From Ferrimicrobium sp. (GTDB lineage: Bacteria; Actinomycetota; Acidimicrobiia; Acidimicrobiales; Acidimicrobiaceae): a stretch of 64,000 bases of DNA. Position numbers and translations under genes: made by a program. The notes beneath the pieces are model-generated. The model made no database searches, was not told where the DNA came from, and saw only the letters and a list, made by a program, of their open reading frames with translations. This document shows, piece after piece, positions 37,610 through 53,844 of this stretch. Positions within the stretch are counted from its first letter, which is position 1. Every line of letters starts with the position of its first letter. Location: NCBI RefSeq assembly GCF_027364955.1, contig NZ_DAHXOI010000001.1:186001-250000 (forward strand), read 5' to 3'.

Positions 37610-38440
37610 TCAGGTGGTGTGGTGTAGATCTGGGTGTCGATGCGGTTCTGTCTCGCGATACCCGTCTTGGGTGATAGCGAACTTGGCGAGGAGTCGGGTG
37701 AGCCTGGTGGTCGCTTGCGGTAGCTCTTCTGCGTCAATAAGAAGGGTCGTCCTCGTCCCGTAGGTTTGGAGCTCAGGGGTATCCGCACCAAAGGTCACCG
37801 ATACTTCCGTGACGCCTGCGGTCTGGGCGCCAAGTTCATCCTCCAAGAAGTTCAGAAGTCGTGCGATCGAGGTGATCTCGTCTCGGGGGATCACCAGGAT
37901 CTTGTCGATGGTCCTAATCCCGCGCTGACGAGCCAATGTATAGGCATCGTAGCCGAGATGATTTTCGTCGCTCATCGAGGTCAGACGAAGGGGAATGCAG
38001 AACTCTTCAGCCAGACCGAAGAGGACATCAGCAAGATCGGCTCTGGGCCAGATGGAGTCCTCAAGGACCGCCAGGTGCGAGACGCTGATGCCCCAGAGAA
38101 TCGCGCGCTCAAGTTGGGCGCGCAGCTCATGGTAAACCTCTACTGCGTCGGCATGTTCAAGCAGGTCTTCGACGGTCGTAGGGAACGTTCCATCGCCTCC
38201 CATCAGTGTTGGTGCATAGGTGAGCGGACGATAGCCAAGGATTGGGTGAGGCGATGTGAGCACGAGCTCTACGCCAAGATCCTCGCCTCGGTAACGCTTG
38301 ACCACTTCGCGAGCCCAAGCGCCGACGACGTTGAGCCGTCCGCTGGTAGCAAAACCACTCTTCATTGCGAGGAACCCGGCTGAGGTCGTCGCTTCAGTCA
38401 CGCCGAGACTATCGGCAACGAGAATGAGTTGTTTGGCCAC
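37610..38440 (-). CDS. ChbG/YdjC-family deacetylase homologue lacking metal ligands
   Basis: A 276-residue homologue of the ChbG/HpnK/YdjC carbohydrate deacetylases; the framework is clear (TYAPTLMGGDGTFPTTVEDL, AQLERAILWGISVSHL, DTPELQTYG). All three metal-binding positions differ: ADDxG is VADSLG (Asp to Ser11), GVHLTL is GVELVL (His to Glu58), and HLDSH is HLAVL (His to Leu126). The late LHPA His is also missing. It is probably a pseudo-enzyme or sugar-binding protein. It starts 15 nt after ftsH with AAAGGAG overlapping the ftsH stop, so they form an operon. The alignment is from memory of the family. Confidence 0.78.
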   Translation of the reverse strand: MAKQLILVADSLGVTEATTSAGFLAMKSGFATSGRLNVVGAWAREVVKRYRGEDLGVELVLTSPHPILGYRPLTYAPTLMGGDGTFPTTVEDLLEHADAVEVYHELRAQLERAILWGISVSHLAVLEDSIWPRADLADVLFGLAEEFCIPLRLTSMSDENHLGYDAYTLARQRGIRTIDKILVIPRDEITSIARLLNFLEDELGAQTAGVTEVSVTFGADTPELQTYGTRTTLLIDAEELPQATTRLTRLLAKFAITQDGYRETEPHRHPDLHHTT

Positions 38441-38454
38441 CTAGGGGCTCTCCT

Positions 38455-40425
38455 TTAGTCGTTGGGAGTGGCGGTGGAGTGGTTAGTGTTTTCAGCGATT
38501 GCAAGTCCAGCCGTTGGGCGAAAGTCCTCAAGTTTGGCGATCGAGGCGTTCTTTTTGCCCTCAGGGTGCACAGGCTTGCCAAAGGCTTTATCAACCAATT
38601 CAGCGACATCGGCACCGGAGATCGTTTCGCGTTCAAGGAGTGCATTTGCGACGTTGACGAGGCCCGGGAGATGGGTCTTGAGTATCTTCGAAGCTCGCTC
38701 CTCTTGCTCGCGGAGGATGCGCTCCACCTCCTCATCCACCAGCCTGGCGGTTCTATCGGAGTAGTCCGATGAGTGCAGCAGGTCTTCACCTAGGAAGACG
38801 ACGTTTTGCGAGCCCCAAGCCATCGGGCCGATCCGTTCGCTCATGCCCCATTCGCGCACCATCCTTCGTGCGAGCTCGGTATTTCCTTGAAGATCGTTGC
38901 TCGCACCCGTGGAGAGGTCCCCATACACCAGGAGTTCTGCAACACGTCCACCCATACGAACAACCAGCGAGTCCTCAATGTACTCTTTCGGGTACAGATG
39001 GCGCTCCTCAAGCGGTAGCTGTTGAGTTACACCCAGTGCCATGCCGGTTGGTAGGATCGTCACTTTGTGTACAGGATCCGAGTACTGGAGTACGTAGGCG
39101 AGCACGGCATGTCCACCTTCGTGAAAGGCGACACGCTCTTTCTCTTCGTCTGAGAGGATGGTCGACTCTCGACGCTGTCCCATGAGGACGCGATCACGAG
39201 AATACTCGAAGTCTTCCATGTCGATTTCGGAAGAACTGCGACGGACCGCACTCAATGCCGCCTCATTGACGAGATTGGCAAGATCAGCACCGCTCATGCC
39301 TGGCGTGCCGCGCGCGACGACGGTCAGGTCGACATCGTCGGCGAGCTTTTTGGATCGGGTATGTACCTCAAGAATTGCTGTCCGCTCGTCGAGGTCGGGG
39401 AGTGGTACCACTACCTGCCGGTCGAAACGACCAGGGCGCAAAAGTGCAGGATCAAGAATATCAGGACGGTTGGTTGCCGCCATCACGACGATCCCCTCCG
39501 CTGGGTCGAAGCCGTCCATCTCGGAGAGCATCTGGTTCAAGGTCTGCTCACGCTCGTCGTGCCCTCCTCCGAGGCCGGTACCGCGCTTACGACCGATGGA
39601 GTCAATCTCATCGATGAAGATAATAGAGGGCGCTTGCTTGCGGGCGGTTTGGAAGAGGTCGCGAACGCGGCTAGCCCCGACACCGACGAACATCTCCATA
39701 AAATCTGAGCCACTGACGGACATAAACGGCACACCAGCCTCACCGGCCACGGCCCTTGCGAGCAGTGTCTTGCCGGTGCCAGGAGGCCCAACGAGAAGGA
39801 TGCCCTTGGGGATACGTGCGCCGAGGTTGGTGAAACGGGTGGGGTCGCTGAGAAACTCGACGATCTCCTTCACCTCTCCCTTCACTCCTTGATAGCCAGC
39901 GATGTCATCAAAGGTCGTGCGCGGGCGTTCAGGAGAGTAGACGCGCGCCTTTGACCGTCCAATCGACATAATCCCCGACATCGAACCCTGGGTCCGGCGG
40001 CTGATGAATATCCACACGAGGGCGAAGCCGCCGATCAGAATCGCATACTCAATGATGGTGCCAAGAATGCTGGGAGTTGTTGTCTGGAAGTTGTAGCTGA
40101 CGCCAGCCTTCTTCAGCGCCGTGATCTCGCTCTGGAAGGCGGGGAGTGGCCCATAGAGGCTGTAACTCTTGCCGTTTGTCAAGGTACCCGTAATTTGCCC
40201 AGACGAGTTGTCAATCAGGGCAGTTTTGATGTGATGGGAACTCACATTCGAGAGAAACTGACTGTAGGTCAGTGTCTTGGCGGTCGGTCCATGATTGAAG
40301 AGAGACACGAGAAGAACGACGACCACGAGCCCGATCAGGAGCCCAAAGGTTATTCGCGCACGGCGATCGTTGCCTTGTTGTTGACCGCTGTTACCGGGTC
40401 GCATATTTTGAGGAGTGCGGCTCAT
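38455..40425 (-). CDS. ftsH: ATP-dependent zinc metalloprotease FtsH
   Basis: A 656-residue membrane AAA+ protease that degrades misfolded membrane proteins and regulatory proteins. Two helices (about 25-43 and 118-140) flank an extracytoplasmic domain. Walker A GPPGTGKT is at about 212-219, Walker [12 protein letters not shown] follows, then the SRH region, and the zinc site HEGGH is at about 435-439. The longest frame runs upstream to 40683, but ATG 40425 gives the normal N-terminus and has TAGCAT exactly 7 nt upstream, suggesting leaderless transcription. The downstream gene is a degenerate ChbG homologue. Confidence 0.95.
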
Positions 40426-40432
40426 TGCTACT

Positions 40433-40438
40433 ATGCTA
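40433..40438 (-). promoter_or_regulatory. -10 element for leaderless ftsH
   Basis: TAGCAT on the minus strand, 7 nt, then ATG 40425; no Shine-Dalgarno is present. Confidence 0.5.
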
Positions 40439-40572
40439 GGCGGTTTGGCACCAATTGAGAAACCTAGTGCGCCAAGTCTCGTAGTGCATATCGGTGGCTG
40501 TTCCTCAGGTTGAGATGCCCGAGCGTTGATGGCGCGGCAACTTCGGTGGAATGCGTGAGGAAGGAGCGATGC

Positions 40573-41310
40573 GTGGAGGTGACAAAGGGCCGACCGGCTC
40601 CACTCTGGTTTCCTCCGGTCGTCCTCGGCTTGGCGTTGGTGTCGAGCACGATTTTTCTCTCTGTCGGGATCTCGGTCTCCCACTTCTCAGGGCCGGCAAC
40701 CCTCTCTCGCCTAACCCCATTCTTGTTGCTTATGGACGAAATTGGGTTGTGGGTCTTCTTTGTGGGTGGCGCAGCTTTTGCCGCGCATACCTACTGGCGT
40801 GAACCCTTCTTCGCGTTGATTGGATGGCACCTTCGACCACTCGTTGACGTGCCAGTAGGGATAGTCGCCGGTGTCGTCTCCCAGTTGGTGATTGTCCCCC
40901 TGCTGTACCTCCCTTTCGAGGCGATCAATCCCTCACTCTCACGGTCCCTATCGAAACCTGCACAGTCCATCGTTGGTATTGGTCATGGCGAGGGGCTCAT
41001 CGTGATCGCCTTTGTTTTGGTGATCGGGGCACCCGTGTGTGAGGAGATTTTCTTTCGTGGACTCACTTTGGCGGTGCTCCGTGACCGGTTGGGGCGATTT
41101 GGACCAGTGCTTCGGGCGACATTGGCGATCCTTGGTAGCGCCTTGCTCTTTGCCCTCGCACACTTCGAACCGTTGCAGTTCGCTGGCCTCTTTGCCGTCG
41201 GTTGTGTGTTCGGGGGCCTTATGTGGCGGACGAAGCGACTCGGCACGTCGATCATCGCTCATGCAACCTTCAACCTGGTGGCATTGCTTGCGCTCGTGCA
41301 CGTACACTGA
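40573..41310 (+). CDS. CPBP-family intramembrane glutamic endopeptidase
   Basis: A 245-residue membrane protein with about six to eight helices. The CAAX/Rce1-type catalytic motifs are present: EEIFFRGL (EExxxR), FALAHFEPLQF and the final HATFNLVALL. Such proteins cleave membrane substrates or act in bacteriocin immunity. GTG 40573 follows AAGGAG by six nt; upstream codons back to 40510 are unlikely. The gene is divergent from ftsH, from which it is separated by 147 nt. Confidence 0.85.
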   Translation: MEVTKGRPAPLWFPPVVLGLALVSSTIFLSVGISVSHFSGPATLSRLTPFLLLMDEIGLWVFFVGGAAFAAHTYWREPFFALIGWHLRPLVDVPVGIVAGVVSQLVIVPLLYLPFEAINPSLSRSLSKPAQSIVGIGHGEGLIVIAFVLVIGAPVCEEIFFRGLTLAVLRDRLGRFGPVLRATLAILGSALLFALAHFEPLQFAGLFAVGCVFGGLMWRTKRLGTSIIAHATFNLVALLALVHVH

Positions 41311-41356
41311 TGCGTATAAGAGCGAGTGCCGATGCGATGCATCAGGTTAATTATCG

Positions 41357-42055
41357 TTATTGAAGCTGGCCACACGCCAACACGAGCGTGGGAAGCGAGA
41401 CAAACGAAGCTGGGTCTGGGTCAACGCCGGTCATGGCTGCGAGATAGCGTCCCGCCAGCGACCCACCCAAACCCACTGGGGTAAAAGCGGCGATGCTGGG
41501 CTCGCTGACACCCACCGCCGCGAGCAGTTCGCACAGGCGCAGGCCGATGTCTGGGTTCGCAATCTCGTCGGTCCCAACGCTGAGCGGGTGACCCTCGACT
41601 CTTCCGGTTGACGTAATTGGCTCCATCAAGACGAGGTGGCCACTTGGTCGCACCCACTGTCGCATCCGCTCTACGGCTGCGAGAGGTGTTGCGAGGTTGA
41701 GGAGTAGGAAGCGGCAAAAGAGCACATCAACTTCGGTCGGTAACGTGAGCTCGTTCACCTCCTGGACGAGAGTCGTGATGGTGCAGTGTGCTCTCGTGTG
41801 TTCGCCAAACGGTGGGTCGAAAACGGTTGGATCGTGGTCAATGGCGTAGAGGGTGGTGTCGTAGGGGAGCACTTGGGCAACGTCGAAGGTGACACCCGCG
41901 TCACCGCATCCCACATCAGCGACCAGGTGTGGGTTCAAGCTCACGAGGAGATCGAGCAGATAATCGGTGGCTTGCGAATAAGGGTCACCGATGTCATCGT
42001 CGGTATTTGTCTGTCCACAATTGGATTTTGTCGGTATAAGGTGGCGATCTCCCAC
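41357..42055 (-). CDS. SAM-dependent methyltransferase, class I
   Basis: A 232-residue protein with motif I VADVGCGDAGVTFDVA (about residues 45-60), a motif II acidic residue in LYAIDHDP, and LFCRFLLLNLATP plus VRPSGHLVLMEP as later Rossmann motifs. The substrate is unknown. The GTG start at 42055 lies 6 nt after TAGCGT, with no ribosome site, suggesting leaderless expression from a palindromic -10 shared with the divergent gene at 42080. Confidence 0.83.
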   Translation of the reverse strand: MGDRHLIPTKSNCGQTNTDDDIGDPYSQATDYLLDLLVSLNPHLVADVGCGDAGVTFDVAQVLPYDTTLYAIDHDPTVFDPPFGEHTRAHCTITTLVQEVNELTLPTEVDVLFCRFLLLNLATPLAAVERMRQWVRPSGHLVLMEPITSTGRVEGHPLSVGTDEIANPDIGLRLCELLAAVGVSEPSIAAFTPVGLGGSLAGRYLAAMTGVDPDPASFVSLPTLVLACGQLQ

Positions 42056-42061
42056 ATTTCT

Positions 42062-42071
42062 ACGCTAGCGT
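42062..42071. promoter_or_regulatory. Palindromic bidirectional -10 element
   Basis: ACGCTAGCGT is a perfect 10-bp palindrome containing TAGCGT on both strands. On the minus strand it stands 6 nt before GTG 42055; on the plus strand (42066-42071) it stands 8 nt before GTG 42080. Both divergent genes could be leaderless and driven by overlapping -10 hexamers. Confidence 0.5.
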
Positions 42072-42079
42072 TATGGGTC

Positions 42080-42562
42080 GTGAATGCAACGTTAATACTC
42101 TGCGATTCTGCGCAGGTCAGTGAAGGTAAGCTCTTTCTCCTTGGCGGTGGGTGGTCGGTGACCGGCCCAGGTATGTCGCCGATGGCGATTGCAATGAAGG
42201 TCGATGTTGGGTGGAGCGAGGCTCCTGAGGCACATCACTGGGAGTTGTTTCTACAGGATAATGATGGCGGTGCCATCACGGTGGAGACGCCGGAGGGTCC
42301 ACAACCGGTCGAAGTGCGTGGTGATTTTCAAATCGGCACACCGCAAGGGGTACCTCTTGGCAGCGATATACCGGTGAATCTTGCGATTAACCTCGGTCCA
42401 CTCCCGCTACCACCAGGGGGTCGCTATCGCTGGATACTCACCATCGATGGTGAGTCTCAACCGGACTGGAATGCAACCTTCTCCACAATGGCGCTTCCGC
42501 AGGGCGACGTCGCTGAAGGCGGGGAACCAAGCGAGGCCCCGCGTCCAATCTCAGAGGACTAA
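42080..42562 (+). CDS. Conserved hypothetical protein
   Basis: About 160 residues, beginning VNATLILCDSAQVSEGKLFLLGG. The text is strand-rich (WELFLQDNDG, VEVRGDFQIGTPQGVPLG, NLAINLGPLPLPPGGRYRW, ILTIDGE) and looks like an immunoglobulin-like or beta-sandwich fold with no signal peptide. I recall similar uncharacterised actinobacterial proteins with the GGGWS and PLPLPPGRY elements but assign no function. GTG 42080 keeps the conserved opening; the frame is open back to 41786, antisense to the methyltransferase. It lies six nt ahead of a MaoC gene. Confidence 0.72.
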   Translation: MNATLILCDSAQVSEGKLFLLGGGWSVTGPGMSPMAIAMKVDVGWSEAPEAHHWELFLQDNDGGAITVETPEGPQPVEVRGDFQIGTPQGVPLGSDIPVNLAINLGPLPLPPGGRYRWILTIDGESQPDWNATFSTMALPQGDVAEGGEPSEAPRPISED

Positions 42563-42568
42563 CCCTCC

Positions 42569-43075
42569 ATGGGCGTGAGTGACCGACCCTTTGGTCGAGC
42601 GTTCGAAGATTTCGTCGTCGGTGATGTCTATCGTCATTGGCCTGGCAAGACCATCACCGAGGCGGACGACCACCTCTTTTGTATGATCACCATGAATCAT
42701 CATCCCTTGCACACGGATGCGTACTTCGCTGAGCACTCGACGGTGCACCAGCGGAATGTTGTAGTTGGCAACCTTGTCTACTCGATCGTCTTGGGAATGA
42801 GCGTTCCGGATATCTCCGGTTCTGCCATCGCGAATCTCGAAGTCGAGTCGCTCATCCATCGTAAGCCCACCTTCCACGGCGATACCATCTATGCGGAGTC
42901 GCGGGTACTCGCGGCCGAACCCTCAAAATCGAAGCCTGACCGCGGTATCGTGACGGTCGAGACCTTTGGTTATAATCAGGATGGCGACGAGGTGGTGTAC
43001 TTCCGTCGCAAGGTTATGGTTTGGCGCAAAGATTCGGTGCCGACGAGAAAATTCCCCTACGCTGAACCTCGCTGA
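42569..43075 (+). CDS. MaoC-like acyl dehydratase
   Basis: A 168-residue hot-dog-fold protein. GKTITEADDHLFCMITMNHHPLHTD covers the hydratase motif, although the usual catalytic Asp position reads Asn (TMNHHPLH), a variant I associate with one actinobacterial subfamily. VVGNLVYSIVLGMSV and ESRVLAAEPSKSKPDRGIV follow. It probably acts on an acyl-CoA such as a mesaconyl- or beta-hydroxyacyl-CoA. It is probably co-transcribed with the conserved hypothetical six nt upstream. Confidence 0.87.
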   Translation: MGVSDRPFGRAFEDFVVGDVYRHWPGKTITEADDHLFCMITMNHHPLHTDAYFAEHSTVHQRNVVVGNLVYSIVLGMSVPDISGSAIANLEVESLIHRKPTFHGDTIYAESRVLAAEPSKSKPDRGIVTVETFGYNQDGDEVVYFRRKVMVWRKDSVPTRKFPYAEPR

Positions 43076-43647
43076 CGCGTTCACCATCTCATCGGACAGG
43101 TTTGACTAGCCTGCCTCGCCTGAGGCATCGTTCATGCTGCGGTTTGGCGATATTCCATTATTTTCTCAAGGTCTGAGGGCGCAAGACGATGTTGTTCTGA
43201 GAGGAGATGAGCCGCTGACCTAGACCTCCCCCTCTCTGTCATGTGGCCTCTCCTCTCTCACAATGCACCGACATTGACGAACGTGATCGTGGCCGGCAAT
43301 CGCAGGTTTGTTACACTCGGATAACGGCTGGAGTGAAGGACGGCTGTTGGCAGGTGCCCCGCAGTTGGACTGATGCTGGTGAAGCGTGTCTGCTCATTTA
43401 GCTTGCGGGTTTGTCCTGGGCTTGGCGACGGAGAGGAAATTCTCTCTCGAGTGCGATGGGTCTTTGGGGCTTGACAAGCTCAGAACATCACGCGTTGTTT
43501 GTAGCCCATTATCAAGGCATTCCAGGCGCCTGGTTGACGCCAGGGTCGCTCTTCGAAGAGGTGCCTTCGAATTGCGCTACCTTCCGGACCTTCGCGATGA
43601 GTCTTGACGGCAGCCCTCCCTCTGTTCTGAATAGATGCTGTTGTGTA

Positions 43648-43677
43648 AAAGGGGGCTCCTTTGAAGGAAGCTCCTTT
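43648..43677 (+). terminator. Hairpin in intergenic region, possible terminator
   Basis: Arms of 12 nt (starting AAAGGGGG and ending CTCCTTT) pair with two internal mismatches and one G-T around a TTTGAA loop. A short TTT closes the second arm. It would end any plus-strand transcript from the upstream gap. Confidence 0.35.
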
Positions 43678-44094
43678 GTGTCATTCGCGAGATGAGGTGC
43701 CGTTTGGCGCTCTGCTGAGCAAGTTCCCGTACGAAGCACTTGTCATACTGGACAACTCGTCATACTGTCTCTTGCGATGATCAATCAGCACTATTGGCCT
43801 GGTGTGCGAATGTAATCGTCTCCTATGATGCCGGCCAGTGGATCGATAGACGACGGGTGCCACCTCTTTGTTCCCTGCGCATCGTGGTGGGTGGGGGCAA
43901 TGTCCACGGTGGAAACGGTGTCGTGGGATGAGTTTGTCATAACCACCTTGTCATGCGATCCCTACGTCATGCTCGGTAGAACGATGCGGAATCGGCGCGA
44001 TGTTGTTCGCTGTTTGGTGCCGGCCGAGGTGGCGAGTCAACGGAACTGTCCAATGGTTGCAGTAACACGAGACGTTATCTGGACATAAAAGAGA

Positions 44095-44100
44095 TATAAC
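44095..44100 (+). promoter_or_regulatory. -10-like TATAAC before the sigma gene
   Basis: TATAAC just upstream of ATG 44104. It is too close for a leaderless start at that codon, so the transcript would probably begin near 44107 and translation at ATG 44125, behind AGGGGG. Confidence 0.35.
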
Positions 44101-44124
44101 CTAATGGCCACGCAGGGGGTATCG

Positions 44125-44721
44125 ATGACAGAGGAGCGGCAGGAACGTTTTGACGCGCTGTACCGCTCAACACGAGCCAAAATACTTGCCTATGCACTGC
44201 GACGGGTCCCTTCAACTGAGGATGCCGCGGATGTCTTGGCGGAGACATTCACCGTGGCTTGGCGAAGGTTGGAGCAGGCCCCTGCTGGTGACGCCGCGCT
44301 CCTATGGCTCTACGGCATTGCTCACAATGTCGTTCGCAACGACGGTCGCAGTCGTAGGCGACGTTCGCAGCTCGTGGGGCGGATTGCTCAGCAGATACCT
44401 GAAACTCAATGGTGGAGTGTCGCTCGCGACGAAGACCGTCTGGTCGCGCTCATGTGCTTGGCGAGACTTCCCCGGGATGACCGAGAAGTACTGATGTTGG
44501 TGGCCTGGGAAGGACTTACACCGTCGGCGATTGCTACGGTCCTGGGATGCTCTCCTGGGGCAGCGAGGGCGCGTATCCATCGCGCTCGCCGGCGTCTTGA
44601 ACTGGCGATCCATACGGCGGGAGTAGAGGAAAAGCATCGAAACGATGTCAGTACGCATGGGTCGACAACGCCCGTAGTAGATCTATTCACCAATGATGTT
44701 AAGGGAGAGAGGCCACAATGA
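44125..44721 (+). CDS. ECF-type RNA polymerase sigma factor
   Basis: About 198 residues. Region 2 has FDALYRSTRAKILAYALRR and DAADVLAETFTVAWRR; region 4 has LARLPRDDREVLMLVAWEGL with the helix-turn-helix GLTPSAIATVLGCSPGAARARIHRARRRL. A C-terminal tail of about 35 residues follows. It would redirect polymerase to a small regulon. ATG 44125 has AGGGGG five nt upstream; ATG 44104 adds seven residues. The stop overlaps the next start (ATGA), so the membrane propeller protein is made in fixed proportion, as for sigma/anti-sigma pairs. Confidence 0.9.
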   Translation: MTEERQERFDALYRSTRAKILAYALRRVPSTEDAADVLAETFTVAWRRLEQAPAGDAALLWLYGIAHNVVRNDGRSRRRRSQLVGRIAQQIPETQWWSVARDEDRLVALMCLARLPRDDREVLMLVAWEGLTPSAIATVLGCSPGAARARIHRARRRLELAIHTAGVEEKHRNDVSTHGSTTPVVDLFTNDVKGERPQ

Positions 44722-46358
44722 ACGTGTTTTTGAGTCAACTTGATCCGGTCGATGAATGGACCGTTGAAGCAGCCGTTACCCATCCCGTCTTTGAGGAACT
44801 ATTTGGAGTAATTGTTGGGGAGGAGATCGAGACATCGTCTGAGCCTGGACCAAAGTGCCCTACTCCCTCCAGGCGATCATCGCACGGGCGCGTAGTAGCG
44901 CTCGTGGCGGTTCTCATACTCGTGGGTGCCTTGGTGGGAATTCGAGCCTTCAGTGGTGTCCGCGCGCTCACCCATCCCATCACCACCGCTTGGCGCCAGG
45001 CCCAGGTGCTCGCGTCGGGGAGTTCTCCTCGCGGCGGAACCTGGCAACTTGTTGATGCGGTCATGAGTGGGACCTGGCAACAGAACGAGGATGGACCACC
45101 GCCGGGGTACCTTACCTGCGCGACTCAGGGGCGCTGCTATGTGATGGCGGGTAACTACTCGTCCGCTTCTGCTGGAGCGCCACTGCTCTCCGAGTCACTT
45201 TACGTTACGATCGACCAGGGTGCAAACTGGGCAATTCTTCCCATGCCCGCCGGGTTTGCCCCTACGACAGCCCTGTCCTGTTCAGGGGCGGGCTGGTGCG
45301 CAGCCGGTGGAACCTATCACGGGCAACCGATTGTACTCTCGACCACAGATGGAGGACATTCCTTCACCTTGACGCCTCTGCCGGGTGGGCTGGGGACGAT
45401 CGACGTCCTCTCGTGTCCATCTCGCGGAGCCTGTGACGCACTGGTCGCGGCGTCGACTGGACTAAATGGTGGTCCGATTGGGGCTACGTTTCTTACCATG
45501 ACCGGTGAAGGAGCGAGATTTGTGGATCATCCGATCCTGCAAGGGGATTCGATGGTCGCGCTTGCCTGCGTCTCCTCGACCCGCTGTACGGTGGTTGGAG
45601 CGACGAGCCGAACACAGGGTTCGCTGCTACCCACCGGGGTGGCGGCGTTGACGAACAATGGCGGCAAGACGTGGACGCCGGGGAGTATTCCTGCTGGGTT
45701 TGGCATCCAAAGGATGTCTTCGCCTCTGGTCTGTTCCGATGCGACCCACTGTGTTCTTGGTGGGGAGATTCCTATTCACGATGCGAATACCTGTGTCGGG
45801 ATACCCACCGTTGGACCATCGCTTGCGTCGTTTCCCTTATCGCCTTCGATACGAGCGATCTCTCGTACTGAGTCACGGATCGCCGAAGACTGGGCGATCC
45901 AAAGCGGGAGCTTTCAGGGTGCAAGGACCTGCACGAACGCTAGGACTAGCGTAGTGAGCGCATTTGCCACAAGTGCGAATGGTGGCCTGACCTGGAGCGC
46001 ACAGTCGTTGCCCTCTGACGTGCCTGATCCACAAATCGATGGGCTCGCCTGCTCTTCGGCAACTGCGTGCTGGGCAGCGGGGTCGGAGTCGGTGCCCCAA
46101 AAGATCGCTAAGGTTACTGACTTTAGCTCCTCTGTCCTCCTAGGAACGGTCAATGGGGGCCAGAGTTGGTCAAAGGTGATCTTTCATGTGCCCGCAAGCG
46201 CACCGAATCCACAGGGGCAGTCGTATCAGACTATCGGTGCCGTCAGTTGCCCAACGAGTAGTCTTTGTCTGGCCGCAGGGGTGGCGGCCCAGGGCGCCAG
46301 CGTCAGTCCAATCTACCGCTTAGCCATTCCAAGCCACCAACCTCAGAGGTTGGGGTGA
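44718..46358 (+). CDS. Membrane-anchored cysteine-repeat propeller protein, putative anti-sigma/sensor
   Basis: A 546-residue protein with a cytoplasmic N-terminus (about 1-58), one helix (VVALVAVLILVGALVGI, 59-75) and a large extracytoplasmic domain. The latter has seven C-X5-C motifs at Cys 134/140, 188/194, 233/239, 284/290, 339/345, 445/451 and 511/517, most 45-66 residues apart; the 106-residue gap between the fifth and sixth probably hides a degraded unit. BNR-like Asp-box text (DGGHSF, NNGGKTW, NGGLTW, NGGQSW) recurs, so a beta-propeller is expected. Its four-base overlap with the sigma gene suggests it controls that factor. No HxxxCxxC zinc anti-sigma motif is present. Ligand unknown. 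Confidence 0.82.
   Translation: MNVFLSQLDPVDEWTVEAAVTHPVFEELFGVIVGEEIETSSEPGPKCPTPSRRSSHGRVVALVAVLILVGALVGIRAFSGVRALTHPITTAWRQAQVLASGSSPRGGTWQLVDAVMSGTWQQNEDGPPPGYLTCATQGRCYVMAGNYSSASAGAPLLSESLYVTIDQGANWAILPMPAGFAPTTALSCSGAGWCAAGGTYHGQPIVLSTTDGGHSFTLTPLPGGLGTIDVLSCPSRGACDALVAASTGLNGGPIGATFLTMTGEGARFVDHPILQGDSMVALACVSSTRCTVVGATSRTQGSLLPTGVAALTNNGGKTWTPGSIPAGFGIQRMSSPLVCSDATHCVLGGEIPIHDANTCVGIPTVGPSLASFPLSPSIRAISRTESRIAEDWAIQSGSFQGARTCTNARTSVVSAFATSANGGLTWSAQSLPSDVPDPQIDGLACSSATACWAAGSESVPQKIAKVTDFSSSVLLGTVNGGQSWSKVIFHVPASAPNPQGQSYQTIGAVSCPTSSLCLAAGVAAQGASVSPIYRLAIPSHQPQRLG
46337..46353 (+). terminator. Short hairpin at end of propeller gene
   Basis: CCAACCT and AGGTTGG are perfectly complementary around a CAG loop and end three bases before the stop codon. 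There is no U-tract. It may be a weak terminator or merely coding. Confidence 0.25.
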
Positions 46359-46838
46359 GGCGAGCGCTACCGGCAATCCCCTGTGCGTACTCGATTATTG
46401 GCCCGTAGAGCGTTAGCGGAGGGCGCTGCCAGGGCGGTGAGACCACCGGAGGAGAGGAGTACGTTGCACGACCGGTCCCGAGACGGCGCATTCAGGTATC
46501 CCCTGTCGAGGCCGTCTGGAGCGCGGTGGGAGCTATAGACGCCGATCAGCAACAGAGAGACTGCGCCGATTGTCCCGTGTATCGGAGGACTCGCACCTGG
46601 ATTCAGTGCATCTTTCAGCACCCCAAGATGGCCTATGGCGCGCAACCGGATGAAATCTAGCGTGCACCCGCTGGTGGCTGACTCGGGGTACCTCCCAGTG
46701 CGAACGTCGGAACGAAATGGAGAGGCAAGACCCGGTGAGGGCGCCCTCAATACACTTGCGGTCACTCGGCTGGTAGGGTCAGGGCGAGACCGAAGGATGG
46801 ATCGCACGTTCACACGCCTCGAGGAAGGGCGTCTGTCG
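46359..46838. other. 480-bp gap, nothing recognised
   Basis: Between the propeller gene and the convergent RmlC-like gene. Open frames here have implausible composition (Arg/Ser/Pro-rich) and no recognisable motif. I see no tRNA, repeat array or clear promoter. Confidence 0.5.
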
Positions 46839-47390
46839 CTAGGTTCTTGGTGTCCCTTGCGGTCGATGCTGGGGGGCGATCTCGGAGAGCCGAGGGTTCG
46901 TCTGATCACGGGTCGAGACGACGGGGTCTGAGATGCGCCAAGCGTCTTGGAAGCGGGGGTCGTCCCAACGGATGCCGAGTTCGTCGGAGGGGTTGTAGTA
47001 GCTGTCCACAAGGTACGTCAAAGTGATATCGGTGAGCGTCGCGAATCCGTGCGCAACTCCAGGAGGGATGAAGACCCCGATAGGGTTCGTCTCTCCCATC
47101 TCTAGATTCATTAGTCGGTCATAGGTCGTGGAGGAGGCACGCAGGTCGTAGAGGAGAACCTGTGCGACACCGTCGACGATGTACCAGTAGTCGGCTTGGT
47201 GGAGGTGGTAATGAAACCCTACCAGCGATCCAGCTATCTTGTCGGAACGGGAACTCTGTACCATCTCGCGACCGAGTGGAAACCATGAGCGACGATAGGT
47301 CTCCTGGAAGGTGCCACGGGCATCTCGATGGACCTCAGGTTGGATGATGATGACGTCTTGAATAGCGTCGTTGGAATCTTGGTTCGTCAT
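46839..47390 (-). CDS. dTDP-4-dehydrorhamnose 3,5-epimerase-like protein (RmlC family)
   Basis: A cupin of 183 residues. HRDARGTFQETYRRS is the RmlC-like opening, followed by GSLVGFHYHLHQADYWYIVDG with the conserved His region, IPPGVAHGFATLTD and NPSDELGIRWDDPRF. The family epimerises C3/C5 of dTDP-4-keto-6-deoxyglucose on the route to rhamnose. No rmlABD genes accompany it. TTG 47396 is an alternative start; neither it nor ATG 47390 has a good ribosome site. The C-terminus is longer and Arg/Pro-rich. Confidence 0.85.
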   Translation of the reverse strand: MTNQDSNDAIQDVIIIQPEVHRDARGTFQETYRRSWFPLGREMVQSSRSDKIAGSLVGFHYHLHQADYWYIVDGVAQVLLYDLRASSTTYDRLMNLEMGETNPIGVFIPPGVAHGFATLTDITLTYLVDSYYNPSDELGIRWDDPRFQDAWRISDPVVSTRDQTNPRLSEIAPQHRPQGTPRT

Positions 47391-47491
47391 TTGCAACCGC
47401 CGTTTCTTTGCGTCCCTTTGACGGTTAGGCTATCAGCCGCCAACGGCTTTGCACGCATCTGCTGAGGCCGTCGCGTTTGCGTCGATGCGAA

Positions 47492-48583
47492 TCAGTTGGC
47501 CGTGAGTCCGAGATCCTTGAGCATGAGTCCGAGATCGTGACTATTGGATGCATTGGCGAGTGCGGTCTCGGCGGTGATTTTCCCCTCGGTAACTAACTGG
47601 GCGAGCGCTTGATCGAAGGTCATCATCCCGTAGAAGGCGCCCTCGGTAACGATGGTCTTTAGGTCAGTCGCGCGGTCAGGCTCAAGGATGGCCTGCTTGA
47701 CCCTTCCGTTGGTGACAAGAATCTCGCAAGCGGCTACCAGTGCAGTGCCAGCGGCTGCGTCGACAAGGCGTTGCGAGATGACGCCAGCTAGGATATCTGC
47801 AAGAGAGACCCGAGCCTGTTGTTGTTGATAGGGCGGGAAGAAGTCGATGATACGAGAGATCGTCTCGGCAACACCGAGCGTGTGGAGCGTCGACAGCACA
47901 AGATGCCCGGTCTCAGCCGCTTGCATGGCAGCCTCAACGGTCTCGAGATCCCGCATCTCTCCTACCAGGATCACGTCGGGATCCTGGCGTAGGGACGCCC
48001 GCAATGCGGAAGCGAAGGTGCGAGTATCAAAGCCGATCTCGCGTTGGTTGATAAAGGACATCTGGTCGCGGTGGGTGAACTCGATTGGATCCTCGAGGGT
48101 GATGATATGCTTGGCCTGGGTCATGTTGATGGCGTTCACGATGGCTGCGAGCGTCGATGATTTGCCCGACCCGGTCGGTCCTGTGACAAGGATGAGACCG
48201 CGTTCGATGGCCGCCAGGTTGGCGATTGAGGCGGGGAGACCGAGGTCGGTGTAGGAAGGAGCCTCTGGCTTGACGGAGCGAAAGGCAAATCCGACCGCTC
48301 GCCCGAAGACAAAGCAGTTCACGCGGTAGCGACGGCCGTGGGTATCGACGTAGGCAAAGTCTGTCTCACCGGTCTTCTTGAAGTTTGCTGCCGCCGTCTC
48401 GGGCAGGATCGTCTCCATCATCGCCGAGAGGTCACTTGCGGTCGGAACGGGCAGGGTAGCAAGTGTTTGGAGTCGGCCACTGACACGAACCCGAGCGTGG
48501 GCATCGGCCTTGATATGCAGGTCCGATCCTCCTTGTTCGCGGAGGGTGTCTAGGTAGCGCTCCAAAAGAGGGTGATAGGTCAT
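47492..48583 (-). CDS. pilT: PilT-type retraction ATPase
   Basis: A 363-residue hexameric secretion-type ATPase that powers type IV pilus retraction. Walker A is VTGPTGSGKSSTLAA, the Asp box and Walker B lie in DPDVILVGEMRDLETV, and the His box is ETGHLVLSTLHT. The N-terminal PAS-like domain includes GGSDLHIKADAHARVRVSGRL. ATG 48583 gives the normal family start; the open frame upstream to 48802 overlaps the divergent gene. No other pilus genes are in the window, so it is an isolated pilT, or its partners lie elsewhere. Confidence 0.93.
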   Translation of the reverse strand: MTYHPLLERYLDTLREQGGSDLHIKADAHARVRVSGRLQTLATLPVPTASDLSAMMETILPETAAANFKKTGETDFAYVDTHGRRYRVNCFVFGRAVGFAFRSVKPEAPSYTDLGLPASIANLAAIERGLILVTGPTGSGKSSTLAAIVNAINMTQAKHIITLEDPIEFTHRDQMSFINQREIGFDTRTFASALRASLRQDPDVILVGEMRDLETVEAAMQAAETGHLVLSTLHTLGVAETISRIIDFFPPYQQQQARVSLADILAGVISQRLVDAAAGTALVAACEILVTNGRVKQAILEPDRATDLKTIVTEGAFYGMMTFDQALAQLVTEGKITAETALANASNSHDLGLMLKDLGLTAN

Positions 48584-48633
48584 ACTGGACAATCTTCGAC
48601 CTGTTGGGCCGGTTGCTGAAGGTGTACCTAAAT

Positions 48634-48647
48634 CCGCATAACTGCGG
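48634..48647. repeat. Inverted repeat in the pilT divergent promoter region
   Basis: CCGCA-TAAC-TGCGG, a 5-bp-arm dyad in the 124-nt divergent gap between pilT and the two-helix protein. A TATACT hexamer lies just beyond (48664-48669) on the plus strand. It could be a regulator site for either gene. Confidence 0.3.
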
Positions 48648-48707
48648 CTATTTTTGCGACGTCTATACTGGAGCAAGAAGCGTCGTCTCTCACCTTCGAG
48701 GTGTCCC

Positions 48708-49997
48708 ATGGAAGTAATAATCGTCTTTGTAGTTGCATTTATCGGCTTGGCGGTTGTAGCGCGGATTGGGCTATCGAATGCGACCCGCGAACGTCGTTCC
48801 ATGTCTGGTCATCGCCAGACGCTTGAGACCATCTCAAAGGTAGCTGACGCTCCAGTTGCTGACCGAGATGTTCGTACCTTTAAGGTTGAACCTCTCCGTC
48901 CAGTGCGCCTTGATCTCTCCAAACTCGATGATCTTACCGATCCCGACCTCATTCGTATCACCTCTCCGCTTGCGAGTGATGACGAGCCGCCGGTCGTGGA
49001 GGACCCTGCTACCGATACAGGTCAAGACCACGACACCGGTCGTTCTCGGACACACGCTTCGAGCGAGAGCGATGCCACGGTTGCCCATGACACCTTTCTT
49101 GACCGCGACGATCGTGAAGAACCTGCCTCTGTTGCAGAGCGTGAGGCTATCGATTCAGGACTTGTCTTTGGCGATGAAGGTCTCATCGGTACAGCCCCCG
49201 GGGAATCGGAGGTGACGGCTCAGCTTATTGCCGCAGGAGAGGTGGACCCATCGCTACTGACGCAGTCCATGGGGACGGTAGAGCCACCGCTAGGCCAAGA
49301 CGCAGTGGATGAAAAGGGTTCGGCAGATGAGCAGGGCTCGACAGGGGGGTTTGGAGCTCGAGGTCAGCACCGTGTCTATTCCAGTGGACGTAGGGGCGTT
49401 CCGCTGTCGGCGATGGCGGTAGGCGCCGGGGCGATTGCGGTGCTGCTCGGCGTAGGCTTCTTCGTGCTTGGTAGGAATACTTCGGCTACCGTTGTTCCAC
49501 CCTCGAGTACGAACCAGACGCAGACCACTACACCCTCAAAGACCTCGTCCACCGGCTCTCAGCCCACATCATCGACCAAAAAGAAGACGGGTACTGGTGG
49601 ATCATCGACGACCAAACAAGCGAAATCAACGACCGGAGGTAATGGAGCTTCAGGGAATTCCTCATCGGCGTCGCCGACGAGTTACACGCCGGTGAGTTCA
49701 AATGCGGGTTACGCTACCTACGACATACCTGGAGGCGCTAAGACGATTGTTGTGAGCGCAAGTCAACCGTGCTGGGTGGCGGACTCAGATTCTGCGAACG
49801 GTGCTCTCCTGTGGGACGAGACGCTCCCAGCGGGTGGATCATATACGATCTCGTCGACGGCCCCGTCGTTGTGGATCAAAGTTGGCAACGCGCATGAATT
49901 CCAGATGCAGGTCAATGGTGTCCCGGTCTCATTCTCGGCACCGCCGGGAGTCTACGCTTTCAACTTAGTGGCGACCTCTGGCCAGTCGCCAGCGTAA
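48708..49997 (+). CDS. Two-helix protein with RodZ-tail-like C-terminal domain
   Basis: A 429-residue protein with an N-terminal helix (VIIVFVVAFIGLAVVARIGL), an acidic cytoplasmic middle of about 200 residues, and a second helix (about 245-270, MAVGAGAIAVLLGVGFFVLG). A Ser/Thr/Gly-rich linker and a folded C-terminal domain follow. That last domain (SQPCWVADSDSANGALLWDE, WIKVGNAHEFQMQVNG) resembles the DUF4115 domain at the end of RodZ. No helix-turn-helix is present. It is divergent from pilT. GAGG lies six nt before the ATG. A cell-envelope role is inferred. Confidence 0.75.
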   Translation: MEVIIVFVVAFIGLAVVARIGLSNATRERRSMSGHRQTLETISKVADAPVADRDVRTFKVEPLRPVRLDLSKLDDLTDPDLIRITSPLASDDEPPVVEDPATDTGQDHDTGRSRTHASSESDATVAHDTFLDRDDREEPASVAEREAIDSGLVFGDEGLIGTAPGESEVTAQLIAAGEVDPSLLTQSMGTVEPPLGQDAVDEKGSADEQGSTGGFGARGQHRVYSSGRRGVPLSAMAVGAGAIAVLLGVGFFVLGRNTSATVVPPSSTNQTQTTTPSKTSSTGSQPTSSTKKKTGTGGSSTTKQAKSTTGGNGASGNSSSASPTSYTPVSSNAGYATYDIPGGAKTIVVSASQPCWVADSDSANGALLWDETLPAGGSYTISSTAPSLWIKVGNAHEFQMQVNGVPVSFSAPPGVYAFNLVATSGQSPA

Positions 49998-50122
49998 TTG
50001 CTGCCATGATCTGGGGTCGCTGGGCGCCGCGCTTGCGAAAGCCACCGCCCATGCGGATGGAGAGAGCACCGGGGGAGCCTGCAGGTACGTGACCCCAGCT
50101 TGTGGTTCGATCTAGGCTCGGT

Positions 50123-52201
50123 TTACGGTAGCTCAACGTTCGTGCATGCGGCGATGAGGAAGGCTTGTACCAGTGCCTCATTCTCATAGACCTCCGTACG
50201 CTTTGAGGCGCCCATATGTCCTGCCTCCTCCTCGACTTTGAGAGCGACATTGGTCATCGGGGAGAGTTGACGGAGTTTGGCGACGTATTTGGTCGGCTCC
50301 CAATAGGAGACCCTGGAGTCATTGAGGCCTGTCGTGACCAGAAGGTCCGGATATGGTTCGGCTCGCAGATTATCGTACGGGCTATAGGAGGCCATCAGCG
50401 CCTCGATTGCCAGCGATTCGGTGGGGTTGCCCCACTCCTCCCATTCGGTAATGGTGAGCGGAAGATTGGGGTCTGATATGGTCGTCAAGCAGTCAACGAA
50501 CGGGACTTCAAGGACCGCAGCGCGGAAGCGATGCGGATCGAGGTTGAGTGTCGCTCCTACCATGAGCCCACCTGCACTGGCACCGCGAAGACAGAGCATG
50601 TTCTGGTCAGTGACTCCACGACTGATGAGCCAGTCGCTCGCAGCGAGTAGGTCATGAAAGCCTTGAGTTTTGCGCTCGAGGCGTCCCTCATCGTGCCACG
50701 TGCGACCGAGTTCACCGCCGCCTCGCACATGGGCGATCGCGTAGGCAAATCCGCGATCGAGAAGGGAGAGCCGCATGGTTGAAAAACTCGGATCGATGGG
50801 TTCTCCATAGGCGCCGTAGCTGTACAGCAGTGTTGGGACCGGCAGCATGACGTCTCGACGGTGGATCACCGTCACGGGGATCGGGGTTCCATCGTCGCTC
50901 GGTGCGTAACCACGATACGTCAGATAGTTGGCGAGGTTGACGTCGCCAACTACTCGCTGTTGCCACAGGGTGGTCCGTTCGAGCGTAGCGAGATCAATCT
51001 CGTACAAGGTCGCCGGCAATCCAAGCGAGGTCTCTTCGATCCTGATCGTGGTGGCAGCGGGGTCGGCATTGCCGAGCAGTATCGATGTAATGGCGGCGTC
51101 GTCTCCTGACAGTTCGATACCAGTGCTTGCTGGCGCTCGATCAAAGGCGACATAGGTGAGCTTTGTGCGGTCCTGCGAGCGCAGTTGCAACACAAGTCCA
51201 AGTGAGGTCGCCTCAAAGCTCTCAAGGCGGTCGTCAACCGGTAGATCGAAGAAGGGTTGCCATGGGGTCTGTGGGGTTTGTGCTGAGAAGAGACGGTACT
51301 CCTCGCCCTCATGAGCGGCCAGGAGATAGAACGTCCCATTGATATGGTCTAAGTGATATTCAAGCCCCTGTTCACGTGGTCGAAAACAGGTGGGCGTACC
51401 AAGATCCCCCGAGGTCGGCAACAGCCAGTATTCGCTGGTGATTGCACTTGCTGATGAGATCACCAACAACTCTCTATCCTTGGTGCGGCCGACGTCGAGG
51501 TAGAAACGTTGATCGTCTTCATGCATGAGCAGTCGATCGTTGGCTGAGTCAGAGCCAAGTGCGTGCAGGAGGACGGTGTCTGGTCGCATCGCTTCGTCAG
51601 GACGGGTGTAGAGCAACTGGGTCGCATCGTTGGTAAAGACAAACCCGTACGATGTGCTGGGAATCTCTTCAAGGACGTTGATCACGCCATCGGTCAGTTG
51701 TCCAATACGCAGGGTGTAGCGCTCCTCTCCAGTGAAGTCAACTCCATAGGCAATCGTGTGATCGTCATCAGCGATGGCGATACCGCTGATGCCGAGAAAA
51801 TCATGGCCCTCGGCGACTACGTTCTCGTCGAGCACCGTCTCGATATGGGTGTCGCCGACTCTGCGCCGGAGATGAATCGGGTAGTCGCGATCTGGTTCTA
51901 TTCTTGTGAAGTACTCAAAGGCCCCGCGACGCATCGGATAGCTCTCATCTGGCTCAGGGATACGGGTGCGAAACTCCCGTACTAGCTCATCTCGTGAGGT
52001 CAGCAAGGTTCCGGTGAGTCGATCCATGAAGTCTCGCTCCTGCTCAAGATAGGCGGCCGTGACCGGGTTGTCGAGGTTACGCAGTTCGTAAAATGGGTCC
52101 TCGCGTAGGATGGAACGGCCTTGGAGGGTGCGTTGGAGCCCCCGCGGAGGGGTTGGGGTCGGTAAGGCGCGTGCAAAAAGCTGCTGAGACAGATATGGCA
52201 T
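50123..52201 (-). CDS. ptrB: Oligopeptidase B / prolyl oligopeptidase family (S9)
   Basis: A 692-residue cytoplasmic serine peptidase with an N-terminal propeller (about 70-410) and an alpha/beta-hydrolase domain. The nucleophile is in LRGASAGGLMVG (Ser about 542), the Asp in TTGLNDSRV (about 627) and the His in EEAGHMG (about 662). The length and the YGAYGEPIDPSFS segment fit oligopeptidase B, which cuts after basic residues in short peptides. ATG 52201 is preceded by TACACT and exactly 7 nt; the open frame upstream to 52492 overlaps the sufB leader. Confidence 0.92.
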   Translation of the reverse strand: MPYLSQQLFARALPTPTPPRGLQRTLQGRSILREDPFYELRNLDNPVTAAYLEQERDFMDRLTGTLLTSRDELVREFRTRIPEPDESYPMRRGAFEYFTRIEPDRDYPIHLRRRVGDTHIETVLDENVVAEGHDFLGISGIAIADDDHTIAYGVDFTGEERYTLRIGQLTDGVINVLEEIPSTSYGFVFTNDATQLLYTRPDEAMRPDTVLLHALGSDSANDRLLMHEDDQRFYLDVGRTKDRELLVISSASAITSEYWLLPTSGDLGTPTCFRPREQGLEYHLDHINGTFYLLAAHEGEEYRLFSAQTPQTPWQPFFDLPVDDRLESFEATSLGLVLQLRSQDRTKLTYVAFDRAPASTGIELSGDDAAITSILLGNADPAATTIRIEETSLGLPATLYEIDLATLERTTLWQQRVVGDVNLANYLTYRGYAPSDDGTPIPVTVIHRRDVMLPVPTLLYSYGAYGEPIDPSFSTMRLSLLDRGFAYAIAHVRGGGELGRTWHDEGRLERKTQGFHDLLAASDWLISRGVTDQNMLCLRGASAGGLMVGATLNLDPHRFRAAVLEVPFVDCLTTISDPNLPLTITEWEEWGNPTESLAIEALMASYSPYDNLRAEPYPDLLVTTGLNDSRVSYWEPTKYVAKLRQLSPMTNVALKVEEEAGHMGASKRTEVYENEALVQAFLIAACTNVELP

Positions 52202-52208
52202 GATGCTC

Positions 52209-52214
52209 AGTGTA
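52209..52214 (-). promoter_or_regulatory. -10 element for leaderless oligopeptidase gene
   Basis: TACACT on the minus strand, 7 nt, then ATG 52201. No ribosome-binding site. Confidence 0.5.
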
Positions 52215-52242
52215 GACCGGTCGTGGCGATGCGCAGAGTTGT

Positions 52243-52248
52243 TACTAT
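52243..52248 (+). promoter_or_regulatory. Possible -10 of sufB
   Basis: TACTAT on the plus strand about 74 nt before the sufB ATG. It would give a leader of about 65 nt. No Rrf2/IscR-like or SufR-like dyad was recognised. Confidence 0.35.
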
Positions 52249-52321
52249 GGAGGTAGTGCAAATCACTCGTACGACTCAGTTGGGGGGTGATGGTGCCTAG
52301 CGGATGCGTGAAGGAGTAACG

Positions 52322-53722
52322 ATGGCCTCGGTAGAACTTGATCTGGGACGATACAAACTCGGTTGGTCTGACGTCGAGGATTATGTATTTAAGCCGAAGA
52401 AGGGACTCTCCAGAGAAATCGTGGAGGAGATGTCGAGAATCAAGGGCGAACCTGATTGGATGCGAGCATTTCGATTGAAGGCCCTTGACCACTTCATGCG
52501 TAGGCCGATGGCTCCCTGGTTTGCGGTCAACATGCCTGATTTAGACTTTGATGATATCTACTATTACGTGAAGCCCACCGACCACCAGGTAGATAACTGG
52601 GATGCGCTTCCCGAAAACATGAAGAATACGTGGGATAAACTTGGCATCCCTGAGGCTGAGCGTAAATACCTCGGTGGCGTGACCGCACAGTATGAGTCTG
52701 AGGTCGTTTATCATCGCAACCGGGATGACCTCGCCAGACTTGGTGTGCTCTTCACCGATATGGATACCGCCTTGCGCGATTACCCGGAGATCGTCAAACA
52801 GTATTTCGGAACGGTGATTCCGCCCAATGACAACAAATTTGCCGCATTAAACTCTGCGGTCTGGTCAGGGGGATCCTTCATCTACGTGCCCAAGGGTGTG
52901 AAGCTTGACATGCCTCTGCAGGCGTACTTCCGGATCAACTCAGAGAATATGGGCCAGTTTGAGCGGACATTGATCATTGCCGATGAGGGTTCGCAGGTTC
53001 ACTACATCGAGGGTTGTTCGGCACCGGTATATTCGACGGATTCATTGCACTCCGCGGTGGTTGAGTTAATTGCAAAGCCGGGTGCTCGTATCACCTATAC
53101 GACGATCCAGAACTGGTCATCAAACGTCTATAACCTGGTGACGAAGAGAGCCCGTGCTGAAGCTGAGGCGCGAGTGGAATGGATCGATGGCAACATCGGC
53201 TCTCGCTTGACGATGAAGTATCCTTCGGTGTACCTGATGGGTCCTAAGGCATCTGGAGAGGTCCTCTCGGTGGCCTATGCCGGAGCGGGACAGCACCAAG
53301 ATGCAGGGGCCAAAATGATCCATGCTGCGCCGGAGACGACCTCGACGATCGTCTCCAAGTCCATCTCAAAAGATGGAGGGACTGCGACCTATCGCGGGCT
53401 CGTGCACATGGAAGAGGGCGCGAAGAACTCACGATCCTTCGTGCGTTGTGACGCACTACTCCTAGACGATAACTCTATCTCCGAGACGAAGCCGTACATG
53501 GAGATCGGAGAGCGTAACGCATGGATTGGTCACGAGGCGACGGTCTCGAAGGTGGGTGAGGATCAGCTCTTCTACTTGATGAGCCGAGGCCTATCAGAGG
53601 CTCAAGCCATGAGCCTGATCGTGAACGGGTTTATCGAGCCGGTGACGCGCACGCTGCCGATGGAGTATGCGGTTGAATGGTCAAGGCTGATCGAGCTGCA
53701 GATGGATGGTTCGATCGGTTAA
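52322..53722 (+). CDS. sufB: Fe-S cluster assembly scaffold SufB
   Basis: A 466-residue subunit of the SufBC2D complex that builds Fe-S clusters. Typical text includes [20 protein letters not shown], the [25 protein letters not shown] strand region, [10 protein letters not shown] with the conserved Cys, and the C-terminal RDCD-like [11 protein letters not shown] with [21 protein letters not shown] is six nt before the ATG. sufD and sufC lie over 7 kb away, unlike the usual contiguous sufBDC operon. Confidence 0.97.
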
Positions 53723-53822
53723 TGGGGTCGCTTGACCTTGGTCAGGGTCGAGCTAACGCAACGTACGGTGATGCGATCGCATGGAGCGAATCTTTCGCGG
53801 CGATCGGTCACCGACGGGCTGG

Positions 53823-53839: not shown

Positions 53840-53844
53840 AGGCT

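Follow-up and report, generated by a model that had tools for sequence, protein, structure and literature searches.

A predicted seven-bladed propeller on the membrane partner of an extracytoplasmic function sigma factor in Ferrimicrobium and other Actinobacteria

We observed that, in a stretch of 64,000 nucleotides (nt) from Ferrimicrobium sp. (contig NZ_DAHXOI010000001.1, positions 186,001 to 250,000; hereafter the window), the gene for an extracytoplasmic function (ECF) sigma factor overlaps the gene for a single-pass membrane protein with a propeller-like ectodomain. The two probably form an ECF sigma factor and a membrane-anchored regulator of the anti-sigma type that carries the propeller as its sensor. 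Comparison of the sequences of such pairs shows that the N-terminal segment of the membrane partner belongs evolutionarily to the sigma factor, and that the propeller is exchangeable among sigma factors. The main features of the locus are as follows.

44125 to 44721, + strand: ECF sigma factor (198 amino acids, aa); Sigma70_r2, Sigma70_r4_2 and TIGR02937 above cut-offs
44158 to 44364, + strand: sigma region 2 domain, residues 12-80; PF04542 match
44449 to 44598, + strand: sigma region 4 domain, residues 109-158; PF08281 match
44718 to 44721, + strand: ATGA overlap of the partner start and the sigma stop TGA, from the sequence
44718 to 46358, + strand: single-pass membrane partner with propeller ectodomain (546 aa); sequence and AlphaFold2 model
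44739 to 44819, + strand: N-terminal cytoplasmic segment, residues 8-34, candidate sigma-binding element; conservation and sigma tracking
44892 to 44948, + strand: transmembrane helix, residues about 59-77; hydropathy, with a model helix at 63-77 of low confidence
44970 to 46355, + strand: ectodomain, predicted seven-bladed propeller, residues 85-546; two models and fold matches

The coordinates of the two open reading frames (ORFs) confirm that the sigma stop and the partner start share ATGA, as claimed in the initial annotation. The sigma protein scores above the Pfam cut-offs for Sigma70_r2 (35.3 bits) and Sigma70_r4_2 (56.8 bits) and passes that of TIGR02937, the ECF superfamily model. The only further domain above its cut-off, PF04545, overlaps the region-4 model, and the protein has the ECF layout of sigma2 and sigma4 domains only in about 200 aa. 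Its start is likely the ATG at 44125, because in the related genome G004 an ATG 21 nt upstream runs in frame into a TAG. The partner consists of about 58 residues, one hydrophobic stretch (~59-77) and an ectodomain of 465 aa with 16 cysteines, 14 of which sit in seven C-X5-C pairs.

Conserved adjacency of sigma and propeller genes in relatives had been set beforehand as a check, and it was found in 26 distinct pairs: three in the same genus, 19 in the family f23 (the family of G454) and four in Streptosporangiaceae. The pairs occur in Acidimicrobiales and Streptosporangiaceae, including Trebonia kvetii 15TR583. Among 98 related genomes, the own genome and two others of its genus have close orthologues, all of them paired. 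In f23, 22 of 172 genomes matched at E ≤ 1e-15, with 25 distinct genes; 19 had an ECF gene directly upstream, two were contig-edge fragments and four had none (23 testable for an upstream sigma). These f23 counts are lower bounds, with at most eight candidates scored per genome. A scan of named genomes turned up 16 loci, every one with a pair; 13 repeat pairs already counted (same N-termini), and the new ones come from two Streptosporangiaceae metagenome-assembled genomes and T. kvetii 15TR583. The genome of L160 contains the fourth Streptosporangiaceae pair, L167. Matches at 1e-20 were obtained in 3 of 61 genomes of the Trebonia family, two of them with a pair. A phylum search with the close orthologues matched only the own genome among 396, at most three candidates being scored per genome, and a contig scan with the three close orthologues as query matched 30 stretches, none of which was confirmed. 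The sigma-propeller system is thus patchily distributed. The exact 4-nt overlap recurs in 15 of the 26 pairs, the others lying between -23 and +11 nt, and each of the 24 partners that no contig end truncates has exactly seven C-X5-C pairs.

We compared the N-terminal segments, sigma factors and propellers of these pairs. N-terminal types, at least seven in number and with type A the commonest, were assigned by eye before tree building. In the sigma tree, every type with two or more rows forms one group, with weak support for type A (59/63). Types B and F fall among type A in the propeller tree, where types C and D are mixed. An approximately unbiased (AU) test rejected the type-A propellers as one clade (p 1.8e-32), as well as those of type C (p 0.013). 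The partial Mantel correlation of the N-terminal segment with the sigma factor, given the propeller, was 0.72 (20 rows) and 0.75 (17 rows), 0.64-0.68 for three segment lengths and 0.62 in a segment-by-segment run; no permutation in 1000-2000 reached these values. Against the propeller, given the sigma factor, the same segment gave -0.06 to 0.11, which is not significant. The transmembrane helix and stalk tracked the propeller at 0.57 (0/1000 permutations) and the sigma factor at 0.24 (20/1000), and the linker tracked neither strongly (propeller 0.21, 34/1000; sigma -0.10). Since the N-terminus follows the sigma factor while the transmembrane helix and stalk follow the propeller, the evolutionary partner switches at the linker, within one protein. 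Together with the AU rejection, these results assign the N-terminal tip (first ~40 residues) to the sigma factor and make the propeller a swappable ectodomain.

The 0.72 and 0.75 values were computed without L127, whose sigma factor is truncated at a contig end, and L131, whose propeller is truncated; these two were also left out of the sigma tree and the propeller tree, respectively. The near-copies L012, L126 and L136 were additionally left out of the set used for the 0.64-0.68 values and the AU test and, together with L160, of the 0.62 run. L167 was in neither the trees nor the sets behind the 0.72/0.75 and 0.64-0.68/AU results, and L159-L161 were in neither the trees nor the 0.72/0.75 analysis. 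In one further pair, from G033 (L108), the sigma factor is nearest to type B (0.51; next type 0.31), as is the N-terminus of its partner (0.30; next type 0.17), and this partner, read for 282 residues up to where the stretch ends, has no cysteine in that part.

Several observations weigh against this reading of the pairs. The label-change count is 6 on the sigma tree and 6 on the propeller tree, and the count alone therefore shows no conflict between the trees. On the DNA, the N-terminal segment is flanked by the sigma gene and the propeller, and plain linkage could carry it along with the sigma gene. The sigma core is tracked by the segment at 0.62 and by the sigma factor's own last 40 residues at 0.27, in a comparison that favours this tail through 10 residues shared with the core. 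The difference speaks against linkage alone, but the low tail value may only reflect an unconstrained sigma tail. Between propeller and non-propeller pairs, the Spearman correlation of sigma factor and N-terminus is weak, at 0.21 (5/2000 permutations), and falls to 0.06 (161/2000) without four doubtful pairs of 15. Homologues also occur unpaired: no sigma gene precedes four of the 25 f23 homologues (G874, G870, G848 and G828; 0.4-1.3 kb of upstream sequence) or the homologues in G354 and G974, and six of 10 distinct homologues (E ≤ 1e-6) in three Streptosporangiaceae genomes (L159-L161) are unpaired, against four paired. Finally, none of 38 other CX5C propeller stretches has a sigma gene directly upstream on the same strand; some of these stretches lie at contig edges, and two (L041, L060) contain sigma ORFs, both on the opposite strand.

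The last result would fit an alternative in which the partner is no regulator but a co-transcribed surface protein, a target of the sigma factor, with an N-terminus that is a mere signal anchor moving with the adjoining sigma gene. Related CX5C propellers are common without a sigma gene, and the segment does physically adjoin that gene. Rv1057 of Mycobacterium tuberculosis, called a seven-bladed propeller membrane protein, is a member of the SigE/SigB regulon (PMC2851646), and propellers can therefore be sigma targets. However, the segment does not behave like a mere anchor. Mean pairwise identity among 10 type-A proteins is 0.55 for residues 8-34, on a par with the blades (0.52-0.57) and far above the linker (0.22) and the membrane helix (0.35). 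Between the window partner and three orthologues (85, 71 and 43% identical), 14 positions in residues 8-32 are invariant, as are all 14 paired cysteines together with C359 and C405. Simple co-transcription was rejected on the conservation of residues 8-34 in the type-A proteins, on the turn from sigma tracking to propeller tracking at the linker, and on the persistence of 26 pairs in at least three families, and we regard the target alternative as improbable. In Acidimicrobiales, CX5C propellers commonly occur with no sigma gene beside them; the coupling to a sigma factor is the unusual part.

To describe the ectodomain, we modelled the full partner with AlphaFold2 using 21 homologues, and the ectodomain alone using 16. 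The full-length model has a mean predicted local distance difference test score (pLDDT) of 73, with blades mostly at 75-94 and lower values at 101-128, 147-157, 498-503 and 524-528; the ectodomain-alone model reaches a pLDDT of 77.8 and a predicted template modelling score of 0.83. In both models we read the strand order as seven blades of three to four strands each, the last blade being closed by an N-terminal strand at about 109-114. Judged by strand positions, each C-X5-C pair would bridge the first hairpin of its own blade. The cysteine pairs and the one large insertion map as follows.

45117 to 45137, + strand: C134-X5-C140, blade 1; sequence and model
45279 to 45299, + strand: C188-X5-C194, blade 2; sequence and model
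45414 to 45434, + strand: C233-X5-C239, blade 3; sequence and model
45567 to 45587, + strand: C284-X5-C290, blade 4; sequence and model
45732 to 45752, + strand: C339-X5-C345, blade 5; sequence and model
46050 to 46070, + strand: C445-X5-C451, blade 6; sequence and model
46248 to 46268, + strand: C511-X5-C517, blade 7; sequence and model
45783 to 45944, + strand: variable insertion in blade 5, residues 356-409, with helix 376-396, C359 and C405; model and identity

Successive pairs are 45-66 residues apart in five of six gaps and 106 in the remaining one. In 20,000 shuffles of the ectodomain (16 cysteines, 465 aa), the mean was 0.5 C-X5-C pairs and the maximum five; seven were never reached. 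The blade 5 insertion, modelled as helical at 376-396 between C359 and C405, is the least conserved stretch of the ectodomain proper (mean identity 0.29 among the 10 type-A proteins). NGGxTW-like text was also found in the partner. The pair count, spacing and Asp-box-like text claimed in the initial annotation were thus recovered, and its expected seven- or eight-bladed propeller with intra-blade cysteine pairs agrees with the seven blades of the two models and with the fold matches. We therefore describe the ectodomain as a predicted seven-bladed, Asp-box-like propeller.

Foldseek ranked YCF48 first (E about 1e-11), followed by DAIP (E about 1e-8 to 1e-7), GH74 and sortilin propellers. By VIA-align, the model matches CylK (7ron) at Z 25.5, with a root-mean-square deviation of 3.7 over 340 aligned residues, and Sec12 and Vgb at Z 24-25. 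YCF48 and DAIP are the closest single-propeller folds in Foldseek, yet are only 12-16% identical to the partner. Membership of the YCF48 family (PSII_BNR, PF14870) was rejected, as the window partner has no match up to E 1; a PF14870 search of the own genome likewise gave none. The BNR profile scores 24.2 bits in the window partner, below its cut-off of 27, and lies above the cut-off in the relatives L135, L159 and L161. No Pfam or NCBIfam family exceeds its cut-off in the window partner, and PDB sequences give no match to it up to E 1. With GH74 xyloglucanases and Vgb lyases among the fold matches, next to YCF48 and DAIP, the propeller might be an enzyme or a polymer-binding domain, with its catalytic or binding state, rather than a small ligand, controlling the sigma factor (for instance in sensing glycans of the cell surface or the soil). 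Function does not follow from a fold match, however, and we think this rather unlikely; it concerns the signal only and overlaps with the anti-sigma explanation.

The regulatory role of the partner was then weighed on its N-terminus. The full-length model places three short helices within about 58 residues before the transmembrane helix; their low confidence (block means 38-64) counts against relying on them. The Hx3Cx2C motif is a signature of zinc anti-sigma domains according to PMC7406223. It is absent from the first 90 residues of the window partner, as the initial annotation had stated for its cytoplasmic residues, and of 24 of the 25 other pairs. L160 is the sole case among the 26, with HLAICAGC in its N-terminus, which also matches the NF052375 anti-sigma model (E 1.8e-5) and zf-HC2 (0.017). 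Both matches are below the NCBIfam and Pfam cut-offs, a point against using them, and among PDB sequences ChrR (0.064) comes behind an unrelated aldehyde dehydrogenase (0.029). ECF genes of the own genome in L010 and L011 precede genes whose products bear the zinc signature. The genes of the two nearest sigma paralogues there (L005, L006) are overlapped by genes for single-pass proteins with a short N-terminus free of the zinc motif and a different ectodomain; overlapping single-pass partners with such N-termini also accompany several of the nearest sigma relatives in other families.

The anti-sigma role claimed for the partner is thus supported indirectly, by the correlation of the N-terminus with the sigma factor instead of the propeller and by the zinc signature of L160. 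All data are also compatible with any other specific sigma-binding role, such as an activator, a dual-function partner or a membrane tether. An ECF gene that overlaps the gene of a single-pass protein usually denotes an anti-sigma pair, which counts against these roles, as does the zinc anti-sigma signature that L160 carries at the N-terminal position. In favour of such roles, RskA of M. tuberculosis is reported, in the account of PMC7509140, as a dual activator-inhibitor of SigK. We consider a role other than inhibition quite improbable.

For the preferred anti-sigma reading, we infer sigma binding of inhibitory sign, a sensing role, disulfide formation and a release step. The partner N-terminus (about residues 2-34, helical in the model and free of a zinc motif) would hold the sigma factor at the membrane, and the single helix would span it. 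The seven-bladed propeller, with one C-X5-C staple per blade, may then act as a sensor outside the cell. A change there, in a ligand, by cleavage or in the redox state of the staples, could release the sigma factor through conformational change or regulated proteolysis. More tentatively, and as a possibility we would not yet favour, the pairs may be a modular sensor family. In it, one kind of propeller ectodomain, with seven blades and seven C-X5-C staples, would have been joined time and again, by swaps in the linker, to seven or more unlike cytoplasmic segments that bind sigma, every segment coming with an ECF subtype of its own, and in one case to a zinc anti-sigma domain. None of the three structural classes described for anti-sigma domains would then cover these short segments.

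CnrY of Cupriavidus metallidurans has a single membrane anchor and works with separate sensor proteins; the window partner has a predicted seven-bladed propeller ectodomain instead, and no sequence relation between them was looked for or seen. Class I membrane anti-sigma factors (RsiW, RskA, RseA) and zinc anti-sigma domain proteins are encoded next to their sigma gene and have an extracytoplasmic part. The window partner differs from them in lacking Hx3Cx2C, which its relative L160 has, and its N-terminus has no Pfam match; a zinc anti-sigma domain was rejected for want of the motif. The four-helix anti-sigma domain of class I averages 101 aa in the description of PMC7406223; the window partner, with about 58 residues before the transmembrane helix and three short model helices, does not fit it. 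In class II, two helices of a short segment of CnrY wrap CnrH (same source); the window partner would be compatible with this class in segment length and topology, while its three short model helices have low pLDDT. The CU044_5270 family (NF038083) matches weakly in the N-terminal and transmembrane part of the L159 (3e-5) and L125 (0.0048) partners, with 24 and 16.8 bits far below the curated cut-off of 100, and has no match in the window partner.

Propeller-like and sugar-binding domains have been tied to ECF signalling before. As outlined in PMC8999054, ECF57 carries C-terminal WD40-like repeats, ECF48, ECF52 and ECF53 have a fused anti-sigma domain with transmembrane helices, and SCO4117 of ECF52 has a carbohydrate-binding domain. 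These domains are fused to the sigma factor itself, whereas the propeller of the window system is on a separate membrane protein. PknD of M. tuberculosis, in the account of PMC4601284, is a kinase whose extracellular propeller is linked to the SigF regulon via phosphorylation. It is likewise a membrane protein with an extracellular beta-propeller sensor and an output to a sigma regulon, but is a Ser/Thr kinase acting via an anti-anti-sigma factor; the window partner has no kinase, and its gene overlaps the ECF gene. In the open-licence literature, searched by titles and the starts of abstracts, we came across no account of a membrane propeller protein paired with an ECF factor. The earlier claim of a new signalling architecture was nonetheless too strong, given PknD and the known membrane-anchored ECF regulators with varied ectodomains. 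What appears to be new is the direct pairing of a propeller protein with an ECF sigma factor.

If the anti-sigma reading is true, ECF signalling gains a direct propeller ectodomain, and the exchange of one sensor among different sigma factors is a natural experiment already built in. Two questions become open to test: what signal is picked up by the CX5C propellers, which abound in these mostly uncultured Actinobacteria, and by what means an anti-sigma segment as short as about 35 residues recognises its sigma factor. The sensor and the sigma-binding tip look separable, and the pairs could serve as interchangeable parts. The T. kvetii pair sits in the genome of a named strain.

Around the locus, we found no convincing gene in 43076-44103 (about 1 kb before the sigma gene) or in 46359-46838 (about 0.5 kb after the pair). 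An Rfam scan gave nothing over the gathering score, a sigma-70 promoter search found none, and terminators were as in shuffles. One upstream feature is conserved in three genomes of the genus; its conserved 10-mer occurs elsewhere in the window no more than by chance.

44060 to 44124, + strand: 5' region, possible promoter and leader; alignment

Among nine neighbourhoods compared, that of G004 is syntenic throughout with the window region, while those of G003, G454, L148, L149, L151, L153, L159 and L161 share only the sigma and partner genes with window positions 38001-54000. Identity to G004 (L056) is 85-86% for the pair and 88-99.7% for most flanking genes; the pair therefore evolves faster than its neighbours.

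Among the 38 other CX5C stretches, many encode large proteins whose pair counts are multiples of about seven. In L041-L080 (G049, G061, G073, G079, G083, G085, G088 and others), large CX5C Asp-box propeller proteins occur several per genome, many with a signal-peptide-like start and often with 7 or about 12-15 pairs. Two proteins of G061 (L057, 4702-6540; L067, 3780-5825) combine seven CX5C pairs with about five hydrophobic stretches at the N-terminus, and represent a different membrane-coupled propeller design. In G083 (L041, 1103-2599), a sigma-like ORF points towards a convergent CX5C propeller gene at a distance of about 1.1 kb and is therefore not an operon partner. In G001, of the same genus, the ortholog search found no propeller orthologue; a short ORF there (L099, 1522-1773) resembles residues 4-71 of the window sigma factor (E 3.3e-24) and is perhaps a decayed remnant of the pair. 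Lastly, L158 comes from a record named Acidobacteria bacterium, and the N-terminus of its paired partner matches that of G919 (L130), which is placed in an actinobacterial order; the record likely has a naming problem.

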